DNA from: Schizochytrium sp. TIO01
Lineage: Eukaryota > Sar > Bigyra > Thraustochytrida > Thraustochytriidae
Assembly (NCBI GenBank): GCA_004764695.1
Contig: SMSO01000008.1
Span: 471,001 to 535,000 of the forward strand
Direction: 5' to 3'
Length of the DNA stretch: 64,000 bases
Part shown: in pieces, positions 39,932 through 46,942 of the stretch
Layout: each line of letters starts with the position of its first letter
How positions within the stretch are numbered: the stretch's first letter is position 1
Notes under the pieces: generated by a model
Seen by the model: only the letters and a program-made list of their open reading frames with translations
What the model was told of the DNA's origin: nothing
Database searches by the model: none
Position numbers and translations under genes: made by a program

Positions 39932-42034
39932 TCAATCTACCCTTGAGATCCATCGGTGTATCTGGTACTTTATACGAGTTTGTGACCGCCTCCAGCGGGC
40001 AATTTTGTGCTTTCGACTGGTTTCCGGTGTCATTGAGAATATTTGTATCGCCTGCTCAAGACGCTCCAAGGAGTCGTTAAATCTTCCTAATTTCTCAAGT
40101 GGAAAGGATTGATTGAAGAGTGATTCTCCAACAGAGGGATGCGTTGGACCATACACTACCTCGCGAACTTCTTGTGCTTCTATATGATACTGAAGGGACT
40201 TCTCGTAGTCCTTAGTGTTGAGGTATATACATGCAATATTAGTCAAGGTAATCCCAATGCAGGGTGCATATTGTCCAAGCACATTTCTCCGAGACGTGAG
40301 AACTTCAAAATAAAGCTCCAGAGCGGCAGCATACCTCCTCTGCCTCTGAAATATACCAGCAATATTACTTTGAGTAATAAGAGTTGATGGACTACTTGCT
40401 CCAATAGTTTCTTGCTGTGTTTCGAGCACTGTATCTAAAATCTCCAGTGCCTTGGAGTATTGTTTCATTTTCGAGTATATGGCTGCGATGTCCCGCGAAG
40501 TCTCAGCAACCTCGTTGTGTCTATGGCCCAGAGACTGGGTTTGCAAGTCTCTTGCAGATTCGAGTATATGCAAGGCAGCTTTAAGCTCCCCAGTCAATTG
40601 CAGAACATCTGCATAGTTACACATGACTGAGATTGTTTGGGAGTCATACGGACCAACTCCCTCTTGAAATTTCTCAAGGCAAAGCTTTAGCAGCGGCTTT
40701 GCTTTTAAAACAAAATCATGCTGAGCCAGGGAGGCCGCGTATCTGTGCACATTACTCCAGAAGATATACTGGTCGTCTTGGCTTCTGGCCAGAGCAAAAG
40801 ATTCATTCATTAGCTCTTCTGATTTAGGGAGGTTGCCTAAGACTGCATTAAGCATTGCAATTGTAGATAGTAAAACTGCCTCTTGGTACCTACTTCGCGC
40901 TGGGCCTTGTGCCATGGTAATTGTGTAACATTCTTCTACGCGGTTAAGAGCCGTCACATTATCATTAGATTTTTGAGCAAGGGCAGAAGCATTGTAGAGA
41001 AGCTCACAAAATTGATCGCAAGAACAGTCTTGGTTAAGATAAGCATTCCTTGCTCTGTCAAGAGCACGTTCAGTCATGTCATCGAGCCACTTCCTTACTT
41101 GGATGTTGATTTGGCTATTAAGTTCAACAAAACCACCAGGCAAAATTGTTGCAATAGCCTGATCAATCATGTATTTGTCAGCCGTACTCCAGCATTGGGC
41201 ATCTCTCATGTCCATATCTTGTGCAATTGCCTTAAAAATTGCTTCGTTGTCAACCACAAGCTGTCTTGTGAAAGATGCTTCTTCACCAGGTGCATAAATG
41301 ACACATATATTCTTAGAGCACCTAACAGCACCAAGAATCTCCCAAACGCACCATGCACGATGTAGCGGGGCAGGTTTATCCCAAAGATCAAAGAAGAGGC
41401 AGAATTCGTCGAATTTGGAGATTGCATTATGGAGACCTCGCGTGAGAATATCCTCCCTTGTTGTTTGCCTTTGTCCGGACAGATGGTCTCCAGCTGTGAG
41501 GAGAGGCTGGTTTGCGCTGAACAAGTCAAGCCAGATAAAGGTTTGTGATAAGTCGTGCCCGAGAAAGTGTTCTTGTAAAGTCTTGACCAGGTCTGTGAGT
41601 TTACACTTGCGTGCTTGACTTACAAAGGTTCCTTGGTACTCTTTTCCAACGGAGAAGGAAGGCGCTGTGTTGATGTAGAACTGCTGTCCGTCAGGCATCT
41701 GTCGCGTGATTGGAAGGACCACGAACTCTGCAAAGTCCTCAATTGTCCATGCGTGTGGTTCTTTCATTTCAACGTCTACACCATCCCGCAAGTTAAGCAC
41801 GTAATCCTGACGAGGAACCCTAACTCGAATAGTTTCCGCATCAAGCCTTTTCTCAAGGCTCACTGAAGTCCCCGCCGCAACTACGCCAAAGGGTGTTTGT
41901 ATCTCCCTGAGCAGAATGTACAACTGTGTAGGCGGGTTTGCAGTAACTTTTGCGGCCTCCTCTACAAAAAAGGCGACGCTGACTCCGCGATAGTCGATGA
42001 TTCGCTGCTGCTCTTCTCGGGTTGCTGCGCGCAT
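39932..42034 (-). CDS. TIR-like region plus tetratricopeptide repeats (kinesin-light-chain-like TPRs)
   Basis: 700 aa from the ATG at the complement of 42032-42034 (an upstream GTG was ignored; ACTACAG just before this ATG could also be a splice acceptor). Residues about 95-260 contain TFIWLDLFSANQ, then FDEFCLFFDLWDKPAPLHRAWCVWEILGA. This W-x-D ... RAWC-x-WE pattern is found in protist and fungal proteins carrying a TIR-like or toll-type effector fold next to TPRs. From about 350 to 680 there are repeated 42-residue TPRs of the kinesin light chain/nephrocystin type (ALHILESARDLQTQSLGHRHNEVAETSRDIAAIY and similar). No NB-ARC/NACHT P-loop was seen. Likely a protein-interaction or signalling protein; an innate-immunity-like role is speculation. 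Confidence 0.75.
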   Translation of the reverse strand: MRAATREEQQRIIDYRGVSVAFFVEEAAKVTANPPTQLYILLREIQTPFGVVAAGTSVSLEKRLDAETIRVRVPRQDYVLNLRDGVDVEMKEPHAWTIEDFAEFVVLPITRQMPDGQQFYINTAPSFSVGKEYQGTFVSQARKCKLTDLVKTLQEHFLGHDLSQTFIWLDLFSANQPLLTAGDHLSGQRQTTREDILTRGLHNAISKFDEFCLFFDLWDKPAPLHRAWCVWEILGAVRCSKNICVIYAPGEEASFTRQLVVDNEAIFKAIAQDMDMRDAQCWSTADKYMIDQAIATILPGGFVELNSQINIQVRKWLDDMTERALDRARNAYLNQDCSCDQFCELLYNASALAQKSNDNVTALNRVEECYTITMAQGPARSRYQEAVLLSTIAMLNAVLGNLPKSEELMNESFALARSQDDQYIFWSNVHRYAASLAQHDFVLKAKPLLKLCLEKFQEGVGPYDSQTISVMCNYADVLQLTGELKAALHILESARDLQTQSLGHRHNEVAETSRDIAAIYSKMKQYSKALEILDTVLETQQETIGASSPSTLITQSNIAGIFQRQRRYAAALELYFEVLTSRRNVLGQYAPCIGITLTNIACIYLNTKDYEKSLQYHIEAQEVREVVYGPTHPSVGESLFNQSFPLEKLGRFNDSLERLEQAIQIFSMTPETSRKHKIARWRRSQTRIKYQIHRWISRVD

Positions 42035-42536
42035 CCTGTAGTTCCCAAGCACTTGTTGTGGCTGTTTGGATTTTTGCTGGAGGGTGCCAGTTCCGGGTTG
42101 CCTGCACGGGTTTTTAACTGGCGCGAGGGGTTTGGACTTGTTGCTGTGCTCCAGAGCCCGTGTAGACTCAATTTTTTTGCTGGGTTTGCCTTTGGTTCCT
42201 TTCTATTTACCTCAAGTAATATTTTATTCTGAGAGCGAAGGTATGATAAATCAACCAGTACAGACCTCTAGCCGCCAAGAGACAAAGGACTGAGCGAGCG
42301 AACTGGGGTTGTCACAAAGCGATGGATGCAATCACTGCGTTGCCCCCTGACTGATCAATGTTTTAAAGCTTTGTTGTCCACTCGGATATGTAAGGATCGT
42401 GCTTTGTTTGGTGAACAAAATATGCACACACTCAAGATAATTTAGCCTACCTACCTACCTACCTACCTATACTACCTACCAGAAGAACAATGCGTGCATT
42501 CTCTTACTATAAAATGTGCAAAACTTGCACTTCATA
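42035..42536. other. Spacer with (CCTA)n array, 3' flank of the IS607-like element
   Basis: Contains a CCTA tetranucleotide array at about 42448-42480. No gene. The transposon end must lie here or just upstream, but IS607 elements lack terminal inverted repeats and target duplications, so it cannot be placed by eye. Confidence 0.5.
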
Positions 42537-42538
42537 GT

Positions 42539-42582
42539 GGGGCTATAAGACCCCATCACGGATTAGTAGGACTAACCCGTGA
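42539..42582 (-). ncRNA. Candidate guide-RNA (omega/reRNA-like) hairpins at the 3' end of the nuclease gene
   Basis: Two adjacent hairpins overlap the last codons of the TnpB/Fanzor reading frame. One has an 11-bp stem (TCACGGATTAG with CTAACCCGTGA, five-base loop; 42556-42582, one G.U pair in RNA). The other is a short GGGG/CCCC stem (42539-42554). In TnpB and Fanzor systems the guide-RNA scaffold is transcribed from exactly this 3' region and can overlap the coding end. No expression evidence is available, so this is a structural inference. Confidence 0.35.
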
Positions 42583-43922
42583 CTCAACGAAATGACTTTT
42601 TTAAAGATCATGTCCTTGGATAGGCAGCGTAAAAGGATGCCTCTGGCGGCGTGTACATCACGGTCAGCTACGTGGTTGCACTTGAGATTAAGGCATTGGA
42701 AAACCTTGGATGCACCGATTTGTGGTGAAGGGTACCCCACTCGTTGCATGTTTTTGAGGTGTAGCTCTCTTGGCAAAGAGCAAGTTTGCACCATGGGAAT
42801 AACTTGGCTTTAAGAAATATAAGCGCTTGTCGGAAACTAAAATGGCGCCAACGACACATCATGCGAACAGATCTCTTGGAGATTCGTCGCTCCATCTTCT
42901 TGCTCATCTTGGAGGTTTCATATTCAGGTAAGAGGATAACACGATAGTTTTCGCAAAGCCAAAGCGCGAGCTTAGGGTGAATCTCAGTGATCTTGTTCTT
43001 GATCTTGAGTTGGGCACGATAGAATGCACGCTTTAAAGGAGTGTTGAAATTGTCATTGCCCTCAGATGTTGCTTTCTTGTTTTCTTGGGCTTTATCGATT
43101 CTGTTCTGGATCTTATCTGTACGGCGACAGAGATAGAATATGGTTCTAAAATCTTTCCCTGTGCCCCAGTCAATGGCTCGGCCATCAGCGTCATATATCG
43201 TCCGAAACGAGCGTACGTCTGGATTCAGGGCAATAACACTATGGTGCGCCGTGGGTGCCTGGTCCATTGGACACATCTCTTCTTCGTGCAAGAAGCAGAA
43301 GTAGACATGCCCGAGGCGATTCATTTGCACACGCATTGCATTCGAAACCTGATCAGGAAACTTTTCTTGCGTGTACGGAAGCTTCTCAAGAAACGAGCAA
43401 TTTTTGAGGTCTTTCTGTTCCAGTCGCGTGGATTAGCCTCGAAAATATGAGATTCATCACGCTTGGCCCGGAACTTATAAAAAGATCGCTCACCGACTTT
43501 CTTTTGAACGGAGAGTTCTTCGTTTTTTGCTAGTCCAGAACCAAGAACCTTGAAGAAATCCAGAATCCAGGAATCACGTATAGGCTGCGGGACTTCGAGG
43601 ACCCATTCAGGAGCATCGGAACTCTCTTTATGTCGAACAGCTTGCTTTTCTCCGTTAAGGGCACTCACATTTGAGGATTCCCATCTACTAAGATCTGCTT
43701 CGTCTTGGGATCCCTCTTGATGTATGCTTCTTGATACGATTTGATGGCGTCCTCTTCGCCCTTTTCTACATCTCTATGAAACGCGACGCCAGTATTGTAG
43801 GCTCTTCTAGTAACACCAAACCATTCAAGCAACTGGATGCGTTGATCTTTGGTAGGGTATACTCTAACCTTCCTAGCACGGACAAGGTTATACTCTTGCT
43901 TGGTGGTCTTGCGCGCCTTCAT
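42543..43922 (-). pseudogene. tnpB: TnpB/Fanzor-type RuvC nuclease pseudogene
   Basis: The start is probably the ATG at the complement of 43920-43922 (MKARKTTKQEYNLVRARK, then VRVYPTKDQRIQLLEWFGVTRRAYN), a typical TnpB N-terminus. The frame then shifts near 43665, near 43360 and near 42728. Conserved blocks can be followed: WVLEVPQPIRDSWILDFFK, FYKFRAKRDE, RuvC-I IALNPDVRSF, RuvC-II VILLPEYETSKM, zinc-finger start ESYTSKTCNEWG, then IGASKVFQC and RuvC-III ADRDVHAARGILLRC. The first RuvC Asp is Asn (codon 43223-43225) and one zinc-finger Cys is Trp; Glu and the last Asp remain. Intact relatives are RNA-guided DNA nucleases. This copy cannot work: it has at least three frameshifts and a lost catalytic residue. 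Confidence 0.88.
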
Positions 43923-44604
43923 GCGAGCTCGCTTCTTCCTCGCTTCTTCCTCGCCGTCTATTTTGCGCTGCTCGTTTTCCGTGATGCGATGCCACAAAGA
44001 CCGTGATGATTCTGAGGAGGTCTTTTGTGAAGGTGTCTGAGTCTCCGGTATGTGCATCTTGGCCGTGTACCACGAGTTTGCCATTTTTCTTTCGAAAAGG
44101 TGTTCCAGGAGGTCGACCACGATTCGCGCAAGTCGGTCGCGGTGCATGACCACAACTTGGCCGACTCCTCCGCTGTCACAGGCGTCCAGTAGGGAACACA
44201 GGCCTTTGCGTTTGAAATTGACCCCGCTACCAATGTCTTTGTAGACGGCAGAAGCATCTGGGTAGGCCCGCTGGAGATCGCCAACCTGACGTTCGAGGTC
44301 CTCCTTTTGCTTGACCGAGGAACTCTGGCGTAGCTAACGGTACGTCCAGAGCTGCGTTGCTCGCAGCCGGTGGAGCCGCAGTCAAAGTTGCGCTCAACAT
44401 CGTCGATGGCGTCGATGGCGTCGATGGCGTCGATACGCTTGCCTCCAGGGAAGCGCGCGCGCAGCGCACGCATCCGCCATCGGCCCAGCCAGGGGGGGCG
44501 CTTGATGAGACACCAAACTACTGGTGAAAGAACTTTGCTGGTTTGTATTGGAGGTTTGCTTCAGTTGCAGCGTTTGGAGCTTGGTGGTTCCTTGGCCATG
44601 CCAT
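43888..44604 (-). pseudogene. tnpA: IS607 TnpA serine recombinase pseudogene
   Basis: Begins at an ATG (complement of 44602-44604). LQYKPAKFF, an in-frame TAG, and FGVSSS followed by GWADGG correspond to the MerR-like helix-turn-helix. A frame change leads to RARFPGGKRIDAID, the PGGKR wing typical of IS607 TnpA. SYARV carries the serine-recombinase nucleophile. After a one-base shift the catalytic domain continues as VKQKEDLERQVGDLQRAYPD, YKDIGSGVNFKRKGL and VVVMHRDRLAR. A further shift near 44075 leads to GDSDTFTKDLLRIITVFVAS and HHGKRAAQNRR, the C-terminus. At least three frame changes plus one stop make it non-functional. A GTCGATGGC triplication (44403-44429) adds extra Asp-Ala-Ile repeats after the wing. 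Confidence 0.88.
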
Positions 44605-45060
44605 TTTCTTATCTAACCTCCACTGCTTAATAAAGACCTAGATAAGCATAACTTATATGCTGAAAGGAAGAGAACAATTGTGTAAAGCAAGATAAAATGA
44701 GTAGAGAAGACTTTATAATATTGATTATATTCGATAGGGAGTAGCGAATATGTGTGGTATATAGTTGATTTGTCTTTTAAGAAATATGTTCGGATTCTGC
44801 GCAGCTTGCTACGTGTGATTGGACGTTTGAGTAAATTTGCTCCCCTGCAAAATACTACGGTCGAAAATCTTAATAGCAAACACTCATGTTTGAAAAAAGA
44901 TAGAAAAAATATGCAGACAGAAGTCAGATGCGTTTGTAGCTTTTGCTCTATTCATATAAATGGCTGAATATATGTTGTGCAAGCACATCCGAGGTCATGG
45001 TTTGGTTAAACGTATGCAAGTCTAGACAGACAGATAGACAAAGCGAAGCTAAGACTAAAT
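44605..45060. other. Spacer between the IS607 remnant and the bZIP-like gene
   Basis: AT-rich, with no gene seen. The 5' end of the transposon should lie near 44605-44640. Confidence 0.45.
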
Positions 45061-46797
45061 TTAGCATTCAGTAGCTTCAGCGTAGCCGATGATCTCCTCT
45101 GCAAAAATATCAAAGGCCCGGTCGAAACCTTGGGCAAAGAGTTCAGTGAGCTCACCATCTTCGTTGAACATGTCCAGCGAAGTGTTGACAACATTAAGCT
45201 GGCCAAATGGTACTGAGCAAGTAACAATCGCATGAGAAGTTTGTGTGCCGGTTCTGCCAGGGAGTACGACATGGCCATATAACATCTTTCCACCAAGCGT
45301 GGCTGAGTCAGATTCGGCATTCGTTTTGTTGCCTGTTAGATCTTCACTACAGGAAACATTTGCGTAAACTGAGCATGGTACCATTCCCGTATCTACAAAT
45401 TGAACAACATCGATTGCATCCCCATCCCTGGTGTCACTCTTAGTGTTGAGCAAAACCTGACCAACAAGGTCGCGGGTGGCAGAACAAGACGTTAGCGTGA
45501 ATTCTGCGCTTGTGTCTGCTTTGGTCTTCTCTGCAGCCTTGAAGAGGGCCACTTGCTCATTCTCTAGCATAGCCATGGCCTCCTTGATTTCTGGAGAATC
45601 GACAGGCTCAAGTTGATAGCCAATGTCGCCTGCGGAGCCCACAAAGCTTCCGTACAGATTGGCGAGCTTGTCAGGGTTTGTCCAGCACAAGGTAAGGATC
45701 TCATGCAGGCCTGTTGCTGAGAGTGGTGCATTGAGGATTTGGTACCTTAGATTGAACCTTTTCTTCTGTGCCAGGGGCGCAAGGCGCGGCAGAAGCTCAA
45801 CAGCACTTGAAATCTCCATACCATGCTCGTATTCGTTCATCCACACGGGGTCCCATTGAGTGGACGCGTATGTGAGACCAACCACCTGGGCTACTGCTGC
45901 GCTGATCATATTTTGCACGAGCTTGACGCGTTCTCGCTTCTGAGACTCAGCCGAAAAGGACTGCATGCGATGCAATAGATTCGAGATATATGTTTTGTGC
46001 TTGAGGATTTCCACGCGAAGTAGTTTATTCTCCTTTCGTAAATCAATGGAGCCTGCCATGCGCATGCTATCAACTTCCTGTTGAAGGTCTGCGATGCGTT
46101 TCAGGTACATCGGTCTGCTCGCCTCCAGTTCCTCATTTCGTGTTTTGAGGCCATCTCGATCGGACTTTCGTTTCAAGGCCCTTTTGTTGGTAGGGTCTTC
46201 GTTAACTTCCGTCACTTTGAGACGCGCTGCTTGCTCTGCAGAGACACCACCACCAGAGGGTTTTCTCCTCGCTGCCTTGAGTGAAGCCTGACCCCAGCTC
46301 TGCCCATCCGTAGAAATGCTATTGTTCTCATCATCATCATCATCATCATCATCATGGTTGTTGATACTGTTGTTGTTGTTGTTGTAATGGTTGTTGTCGC
46401 TATCAGCATCATCATCATTACCGTCGTTTTCACCTGGGTTTTCATTCCCATTCTCCGAGTCATGGTCACAGCTATTTGCATTAGAAGCGCTATCGCCAAT
46501 GTCTTTGTCGTTCTCTTCTTCTTCTTCTTCTTCTGTGCCATATTGATCTTTGTTTCGTGGACCACTGTGCGTATCGCCGCTCATATTCGTGTGTCTGTTT
46601 CTGTTCGCGACCTCGTTCTTGAGGCCATTTTCATAGCTGTTATCCTTGTCGCTGTTATCCTTGTTGACGTCATTGACATCTTTTGGAGCATCCCCGTCGG
46701 GGTCATCGAGCACTACCTCGAAGGCTGCGCTTTCACTGTCCAGGAAGACATCCCAGTCTGCCTGATCCCGGGCCGCTGCGTCGACCGGGGTCTCCAT
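45061..46797 (-). CDS. bZIP-like protein with a large conserved C-terminal domain
   Basis: 578 aa from the ATG at the complement of 46795-46797 (METPVDAAARDQADWDVFL). An in-frame extension upstream has only a TTG, so an upstream exon is possible. Residues about 30-170 are acidic and Asn/Asp/Glu-rich (poly-E, poly-D/N runs), resembling an activation domain. A basic stretch (NKRALKRKSDRDGLKTRNEELEA) runs into a long heptad coil (RPMYLKRIADLQQEVDSM, then LRKENKLLRVEILKHKTYISNLL), as in stramenopile bZIP factors. The C-terminal about 280 residues (from VAQVVGLTYASTQWDPVW) form a globular domain with no certain name; it may be START- or PAS-related. Probably a nuclear DNA-binding regulator. A partial paralogue lies at 54.9-56.2 kb. 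Confidence 0.75.
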   Translation of the reverse strand: METPVDAAARDQADWDVFLDSESAAFEVVLDDPDGDAPKDVNDVNKDNSDKDNSYENGLKNEVANRNRHTNMSGDTHSGPRNKDQYGTEEEEEEENDKDIGDSASNANSCDHDSENGNENPGENDGNDDDADSDNNHYNNNNNSINNHDDDDDDDDENNSISTDGQSWGQASLKAARRKPSGGGVSAEQAARLKVTEVNEDPTNKRALKRKSDRDGLKTRNEELEASRPMYLKRIADLQQEVDSMRMAGSIDLRKENKLLRVEILKHKTYISNLLHRMQSFSAESQKRERVKLVQNMISAAVAQVVGLTYASTQWDPVWMNEYEHGMEISSAVELLPRLAPLAQKKRFNLRYQILNAPLSATGLHEILTLCWTNPDKLANLYGSFVGSAGDIGYQLEPVDSPEIKEAMAMLENEQVALFKAAEKTKADTSAEFTLTSCSATRDLVGQVLLNTKSDTRDGDAIDVVQFVDTGMVPCSVYANVSCSEDLTGNKTNAESDSATLGGKMLYGHVVLPGRTGTQTSHAIVTCSVPFGQLNVVNTSLDMFNEDGELTELFAQGFDRAFDIFAEEIIGYAEATEC

Positions 46798-46942
46798 CCT
46801 CGCGTTGTATTTTGCAGGCGTACGAATCGGAATTGCGAAGCTGCTTGCCGCTTCAATTTCGTCGATAGTCAATTGTCAACTATCACTTTCCCTTTTGGAA
46901 AGAGGGGACAAACTTGAAGAATGAATAGAAAAGAATGAAAAA

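Follow-up and report, generated by a model that had tools for sequence, protein, structure and literature searches.

A decayed IS607-type element in a Schizochytrium genome and a probable N-terminal TnpB module overprinted on its transposase gene

Introduction

Eukaryotic and viral IS607 elements that pair a TnpA serine recombinase with a Fanzor2-type TnpB nuclease are already known, according to the available text of PMC3627910 and PMC10711439. The accessible parts of the latter describe IS607 as inserting between matching dinucleotides, and report a fingerprint of a DPG motif plus a shifted glutamate (hereafter DPG/Glu) in <1% of TnpB homologues. Here, we analyzed such an element in a 64,000-nucleotide stretch of the thraustochytrid Schizochytrium sp. 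TIO01 (assembly GCA_004764695.1, contig SMSO01000008.1, positions 471,001 to 535,000; C7:471001-535000 in our contig numbering), referred to below as the window. The copy in the window is dead, and we consider it very probable that the TnpBs of its clade carry an N-terminal extension that is overprinted on tnpA and maintained as protein.

Overlapping and separate types of IS607 open reading frames (ORFs) have been named in the accessible text of PMC9956272. The passages available to us from Bao & Jurka 2013 (PMC3627910) call the N-terminal regions highly variable, and a figure legend in Saito et al. 2023 (PMC10432273) states that Fanzors gained various extensions, N-terminal ones included, which the passages at hand do not tie to tnpA or to bacterial pro-Fanzors. 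The string 'N-termin' is absent from the main text of Yoon et al. 2023 (PMC10711439). A long TnpB segment overprinted on tnpA was not found in the mostly open literature searched, parts of which were partial texts, and a prior description is possible.

Results

The TnpB frame runs across nearly all of tnpA

In three sister copies from the same genome (loci L012-L014), no stop interrupts the TnpB frame, +1 relative to TnpA, over 662 codons, beginning shortly ahead of the TnpA start and running to the TnpB stop codon. A prediction made from the window sequence alone (the original prediction) had described gene order and overlap as those of prokaryotic IS607: the order holds, the overlap does not, as the two frames overlap far more, and that prediction did not include that the TnpB frame covers tnpA almost completely. 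Among bacterial and viral relatives, the two frames overlap by 440-701 nt at nine loci and by 212 nt at the truncated L033; open +1 tails in eight ordinary IS607 elements are just 2-95 nt long. The viral contigs yielded no match when scanned with a single protein as query and three loci when an alignment was used.

We counted stops in 28 distinct tnpAs and three host rows, and compared these counts with permutations that preserve the protein and its codon usage. The 15 tnpAs with a DPG/Glu TnpB downstream displayed 0-2 stops in +1 (five in L040) versus permutation means of 2.1-9.6, with P ≤ 0.01 in 13 (the exceptions being L046, 0.036, and L061, 0.10), while ten other IS607 rows contained 9-23 stops, like their permutations. 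Three rows in which TnpB was cut or not recognised (L074, L032, and L072) had 1, 1, and 2 stops. The +2 frame was not stop-depleted as a rule (the two control rows L050 and L048, as well as L060, reach P 0.04-0.05).

This survey was then replicated in 292 genomes from the phylum of the L042 genome, 23 of which had a match, giving 21 cyanobacterial tnpA rows, among them L087, a repeat of L042, and several near-copies. In the phylum to which the Thiomargarita genome belongs, 1 of 299 genomes matched. The +1 frame covered 85-100% of tnpA in 20 of the 21 rows, in 17 it continued into TnpB and stayed open for 527 codons or more, an [SY]WFS motif was present in 18, and permutation P was ≤ 0.012 in 15. 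Several rows in the two surveys weigh against a general trait. TnpB lies in a frame other than +1 in L068, as does the TnpB core of L101; P exceeds 0.05 in L110, L090, L109, L114, and L098; L103, with a TnpB profile match of unrecognised class, is a clear exception with 16 stops in its +1 frame; L086 and L115 stay open in +1 for just 229 and 180 codons; and the DPG/Glu pattern recognised the TnpB class in 10 of 21 rows and failed in 11. Since the recognised rows include two with DLG (L097, L113) beside eight with DPG, overprinting may extend beyond the strict DPG group.

The later tests (pairwise similarity, third bases, host-copy changes, and both profile hidden Markov model (HMM) tests) used subsets of the surveyed tnpAs. 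Partial rows L063, L055, and L072 were omitted from the controls, and L036, L046, L075, L087, and L101 from the extension-HMM test, in which L103, a miss in the cyanobacterial survey, served as a control.

The next start codon lies in the TnpB frame

The start of tnpA is uninterrupted in 12 host copies. In 11 of them, the AUG that follows the TnpA AUG lies 124 or 172 nt downstream and in the TnpB frame; in the remaining copy, L027, it is shifted out of that frame by a single nucleotide. Across 32 of 35 cyanobacterial rows (L103 omitted), the earliest +1 ATG beyond the final stop of that frame is at most 127 nt from the tnpA start. The extended TnpB might thus be started in the host by leaky scanning past the TnpA AUG to the next AUG, and in bacteria from an ATG a few codons inside tnpA. 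Two features speak against so simple a scheme in the host: 1-3 upstream AUGs lie within 115 nt of the TnpA AUG in all 12 copies, and the context of the TnpA AUG (AAAATGG) looks strong, complicating leaky scanning. Many of these upstream AUGs are themselves in the TnpB frame, which closes just before the TnpA AUG, a possible upstream ORF.

TnpB is +1 of TnpA in 14 of the 15 recognised rows of the first survey and in 9 of 10 in the cyanobacterial one, a regularity that would also suit a programmed frameshift in tnpA, yielding a TnpA-TnpB fusion that includes the extension instead of a separate extended TnpB. We regard this as unlikely, because L031, a viral-contig locus without tnpA, encodes an extended TnpB with its own ATG, and because of the position of the next AUG in the host copies.

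The extension is conserved beyond TnpA coding

Three conserved aromatic patches, P[FY]W..LW..SW[FY][ST], mark the extension. This pattern was found in 55 of 60 proteins with a long N-terminus; four of the other five were sliced short, and P0188 has PWFT. The 52 rows of alignment A3 come from the 120 listed among 984 hits; since they were chosen for length and mostly for carrying the motif, their invariant Ser-Trp is weak evidence.

We next built an HMM from 50 extended metagenome and eukaryotic rows and applied it to 32 bacterial and viral tnpAs. Their +1 frames scored 68-164 bits, and the observed score exceeded 200 of 200 synonymous-codon permutations in 29 rows and 197-199 in the other three; scores in the +2 frame were ≤ 1.1, and nine control rows scored like their own permutations. 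Reciprocally, with an HMM from 23 cyanobacterial rows, 0, 6, 3, and 1 of 500 permutations equalled or exceeded the observed score in four host copies. These results bear on the possibility that the element is an ordinary Fanzor2 element in which the +1 frame is open merely through codon usage and TnpA conservation and is never translated into TnpB. Overlapping ORFs are common in IS607, as stated in the available text of PMC6188088, and permuted tnpAs of the clade contain just about 2-10 stops and still score 28-84 bits on average, so that part of the signal follows from TnpA itself. Yet the observed scores exceed permutations that hold protein and codon usage constant, other IS607 tnpAs of the same ten genomes lack an open +1 frame, and the extension persists after tnpA loss, which makes a mere by-product quite improbable.

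This persistence is seen in L031 and in the Thiomargarita locus L043, where no tnpA was found and the TnpB extension is kept, the former tnpA frame being interrupted by 17 stops in 101 codons (L031) and by 18 in 109 (L043); the extension sequences scored for these two loci end before the SW motif. The pair is the strongest single point in support of an extension kept as protein. As they fall on opposite sides of the TnpB tree (the place of L031 being unsure), retention after tnpA loss probably happened more than once.

Conservation is also visible at the level of single bases. At TnpA codons 171-173 (host numbering), where the TnpB frame reads Ser-Trp-Phe/Tyr, the third base of the first codon is C in 12 of 13 lineages, that of the second G in all 13, and that of the third T in 12; in eight controls, these bases vary. 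For pairs with TnpA identity < 35%, the mean z-score of +1 similarity was 3.7 versus 0.3 in controls (17 and 20 pairs). Two results run counter to protein-level selection: z(+2) is also raised, though less (1.9 versus 0.8 in controls), and no clear dual-frame constraint was detected among recent host copies, with 43 changes near neutral expectation and low power. Third-base fixation peaks in one short block, and this, together with the +2 signal, could reflect an internal RNA or DNA element, such as a regulatory RNA or a TnpA binding site, rather than a second protein. Such an element is a very remote explanation, given that stop depletion is specific to +1, that the motif residues stay though their spacing varies (also in L031 and P0094), and that the tnpA-less L031 and L043 hold the protein motif in frame.

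The best reading of this sequence evidence is that TnpB of the Fanzor2 and pro-Fanzor type has a genuine N-terminal module that shares its DNA with tnpA and would be translated as part of TnpB. An ancestral module of this kind, selected in bacteria, viruses, and protists and kept after tnpA loss, is in our view likely.

The element belongs to the eukaryotic IS607/Fanzor2 class

The original prediction of an IS607-type transposon with TnpA and a Fanzor2-type TnpB in a protist genome was confirmed by a PF12323 match in the window TnpB (Table 1) and by the TnpA of the sister copy L003, which scores 144.6 bits with NF033518 transpos_IS607 (cut-off 110) and matches PF00239 Resolvase at 6.6e-20; its MerR match is weak (0.006, under cut-off). 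The sister TnpB reaches 92 bits with guided_TnpB, under the cut-off of 100. RuvC-I reads LDPG in L003, as it does in 118 of the 120 homologues listed from 984 hits, and the RuvC-II glutamate sits six residues before the first CxxC (ESYTSKTCNEC in L003; pattern in 120 of these 120). The first zinc-finger knuckle is CxxC, and the second is Cx4C in the host copies read, such as L003 (1390-2838, minus strand), and in P0001 (CPNLKC, CPNPKC) as well as in P0008 and P0015, with CxxC in the other 14 of 16 relatives aligned (A1). In the DPG-type L032, L043/L084, and L085, zinc-finger cysteines are lost (TSKTVSWTGE, TSKTCSWNGE) with DPG and glutamate kept. Pairing with an IS607 TnpA places this TnpB outside Fanzor1, which belongs to non-IS607 eukaryotic transposons. 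The element is thus an IS607/Fanzor2 insertion, another member of a known eukaryotic class.

A midpoint-rooted tree of 33 TnpB rows has two sides. One holds the cyanobacterial rows together with L032 and L043; the other holds the metagenome and eukaryotic rows together with the host, Durusdinium P0016, L034 from a bacterial bin, and L031 (on a long branch, hence its unsure place). The sister TnpB sits among the metagenome and eukaryotic sequences, apart from the sampled cyanobacteria. L034 comes from uncultured bacterium bin-281, and its contig may be misassigned or represent a bridge.

The window copy is a pseudogene

The window copy, a decayed TnpA-TnpB/Fanzor2 element at about 42501-44660 of the minus strand, is a pseudogene in which both gene frames are broken (Table 1). 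Taken piece by piece, its tnpA fragments match residues 2-232 of a 232-aa TnpA that is intact elsewhere in the genome. An alignment of 2167 columns with sister L013 gives 85.2% DNA identity, 10 insertions, and 8 deletions. Read by eye, the first RuvC aspartate is replaced (ALNPD for ALDPG) and a zinc-ligand cysteine is lost. PF07282 pieces in 42543-42794 and 42668-43336 (E 4.1e-4 and 0.024) remain below the Pfam cut-off. The right end (...AAGAG) is at 42501, and at the left end the last ~60 nt are absent or too diverged; the limits are slightly wider than the predicted 42537-44604.

Table 1 Features in the window (positions in the window; all on the minus strand)
Feature	Position	Strand	Basis
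IS607-type element, window copy	42501..44660	-	85.2% DNA identity to sister L013, end alignments; left limit approximate
tnpA remnant, frame broken (IS607 serine recombinase; 232 aa in sisters)	43891..44604	-	pieces 43891-44601 (C7:514891-515601); ATG 44604-44602
tnpB/Fanzor2 remnant, frame broken	42606..44480	-	overprinted ATG (44480) to homologous-core end; RuvC-I Asp replaced at 43225-43223
tnpB part overprinting tnpA (+1 frame extension)	44064..44480	-	Ser-Trp-Tyr-Thr motif at 44075-44064
HTH_OrfB_IS605, start of TnpB core	43779..43880	-	PF12323, E 1.3e-9, within ORF 43665-44153
Right-end structured segment, candidate omega/fRNA guide scaffold, three hairpins	42501..42603	-	fold z -6.23
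Flanking host gene, TPR-repeat protein	39932..42052	-	PF13424 2.5e-41
Flanking host gene, 603-aa ORF	45061..46872	-	98% identity to MMETSP transcript-derived protein

The family is resident in the host genome and is, or lately was, mobile

We searched the assembly of the window itself (64.06 Mb, 37 contigs) with a 222-residue TnpB piece, pieces of one copy being counted apart. Among the 142 matches listed, the window copy was the best, and 17 further copies had 76-86% identity over 202-221 residues with no internal stop in the piece searched; their open frame is at least 615 aa in 16 and 290 aa in one. A sister TnpA (232 aa) as query gave ten genome places stop-free over residues 1/2-232, in addition to the broken pieces of the window. 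Intact relatives elsewhere in the genome, suspected in the original prediction, are thus present. Aligned copies are about 2.2 kb long, with L012 and L013 99.6% identical over 2213 columns, and this transposon type is, or very recently was, mobile in the protist. Many old fragments at about 35-60% amino-acid identity suggest long residence, and the proposed horizontal acquisition, in the sense of a recent arrival of the window copy, is not supported. A transcript-derived TnpB from MMETSP (P0001) is 91% identical to a sister copy, and its TnpB frame (+1) is open. The element is resident in the genome: bacterial contamination of the assembly, suggested by protein families that we understand, in part from the available text of PMC10711439, to be of bacterial origin, can be dismissed, as the stop-free copies lie on many contigs with differing flanks, a dispersed host repeat sits inside five IS607 copies, and MMETSP holds relatives of both the TnpB and the flanking 603-aa ORF.

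The repeat just mentioned is a 294-bp insert in tnpA that we had considered as an intron, a candidate rejected because it recurs in at least 40 genome places, five being IS607 copies. Near-identical repeats lie inside tnpA of L019, L023, L024, and L026 and at C13:5455965-5456258, at differing places. A derivative with a broken tnpA seems to have spread, presumably through TnpA supplied by other copies. A right end 93% identical to the family at C30:8395848-8395953, with no TnpB match nearby among those listed, is possibly a right-end-only or non-autonomous copy.

Element ends and a candidate guide RNA

Of the 20 rows retrieved, 18 covered both ends. On the right, 17 of these terminate in CTAAGAG and the remaining one in CTAGGAG; the left junction, read by eye, has CAG in 13. 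Flanks differ among copies except for one short match and the left flank of L020, which resembles that of L012 (71%). L012 itself is a young copy: as its left flank (C13:5820931-5821060) shows, it landed shortly ahead of the tnpA start in an old copy of reverse orientation. To look for empty sites, the left and right flanks were joined into a query for four insertions and, in part, for a fifth. For L012, the matches across the junction were older reversed IS607 copies, i.e., paralogous empty sites, with the unoccupied sequence ..TAGACAC.. in L076, L077, and L078 and variants in L079 and L080. AG occurs once in the empty site and at both ends after insertion, with no target duplication. Although no empty paralogue was found for the other insertions queried (L020, L013, L017, and part of L018), a limit on how far this can be generalized, one of five queried insertions thereby displays the IS607 trait of no terminal inverted repeats (TIR), no target-site duplication (TSD), and crossover at a dinucleotide core.

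Three right ends, including that of the window, fold with z-scores of -3.5, -5.6, and -6.2 relative to shuffles, and 0 of 200 shuffles were as stable as the window right end. For two of the three helices, 97.5% of cells pair across 15 copies, versus 34-45% when slid. Three results weigh against the proposed fold: three hairpins were the best fold in two of the three ends, no two-sided covariation was detected in the right-end helices across the 15 copies, and RNAalifold on these 15 right ends returned a different fold with a covariation term of 0. We kept the three-hairpin model, taken from the single-sequence folds; the right-end structure fits a candidate guide scaffold, short of proof.

Discussion

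From known IS607 biology and the ends observed here, we propose that TnpA would excise the element as a circle and reinsert it by crossover at AG, leaving AG at both ends and no duplication. TnpB, with its RuvC domain carrying DPG and the rearranged glutamate, would take the right-end hairpin RNA and about 20 nt of right flank as its guide and cut sites lacking the element, favouring retention and copying. The native TnpB would exceed its core of about 430 residues by an N-terminal extension of about 100-190 residues, read in +1 over nearly all of tnpA. We infer the mode of initiation, the use of a guide, and any biochemical role of the extension, for which docking on the core or the RNA, nuclear import in eukaryotes, and a switch between long and short isoforms are candidates.

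If correct, this reading adds a missing part to direct relatives of Fanzor, which are of interest as compact RNA-guided nucleases; core-only constructs from this clade would miss a native part that may tune activity, RNA binding, the TnpA-TnpB balance, or nuclear entry. It would also be a case of transposase and nuclease genes that share about 440-700 nt of the same strand, in bacteria and a protist alike, as a conserved arrangement, and would account for the coupling of tnpA and tnpB in the clade, with both genes locked in one stretch of DNA. In addition, a eukaryotic genome with many near-identical full IS607 copies is a host in which mobility could be studied natively.

Among known systems, ordinary IS607 elements (IS1535, ISC1926, ISC1904; PDB 6dgb, 6dgc, 3ilx) share the TnpA catalytic domain, and the overprinted frame is lacking in the control IS607 elements sampled here, a set distinct from these three. 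The best solved profile match is the mimivirus TnpB-like L79 (PDB 9b0l), whose core aligns at E 1.4e-44; the match begins at chain residue 95, and the extension is unaligned. Cyanobacterial pro-Fanzor IS607 elements, as far as the accessible text of PMC10711439 describes them, are of the same families, with mostly the same +1 relation and an overprinted extension, but differ from the host element in TnpA (28-35% identity) and in their side of the TnpB tree. Eukaryotic and viral IS607-Fanzor2 elements, as given in the available parts of PMC3627910 and PMC10711439, have in common with it TnpA and Fanzor2, no TIR or TSD, DPG with the alternative glutamate, and a right-end RNA, which here is a candidate; set against those descriptions, the element reported here has 17 further copies in one genome, an AG core, a Cx4C second knuckle, and an overprinted tnpA. 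Overall, it is this probable overprinted TnpB module, well supported by sequence, that appears to set the clade apart from known IS607/Fanzor2 elements.
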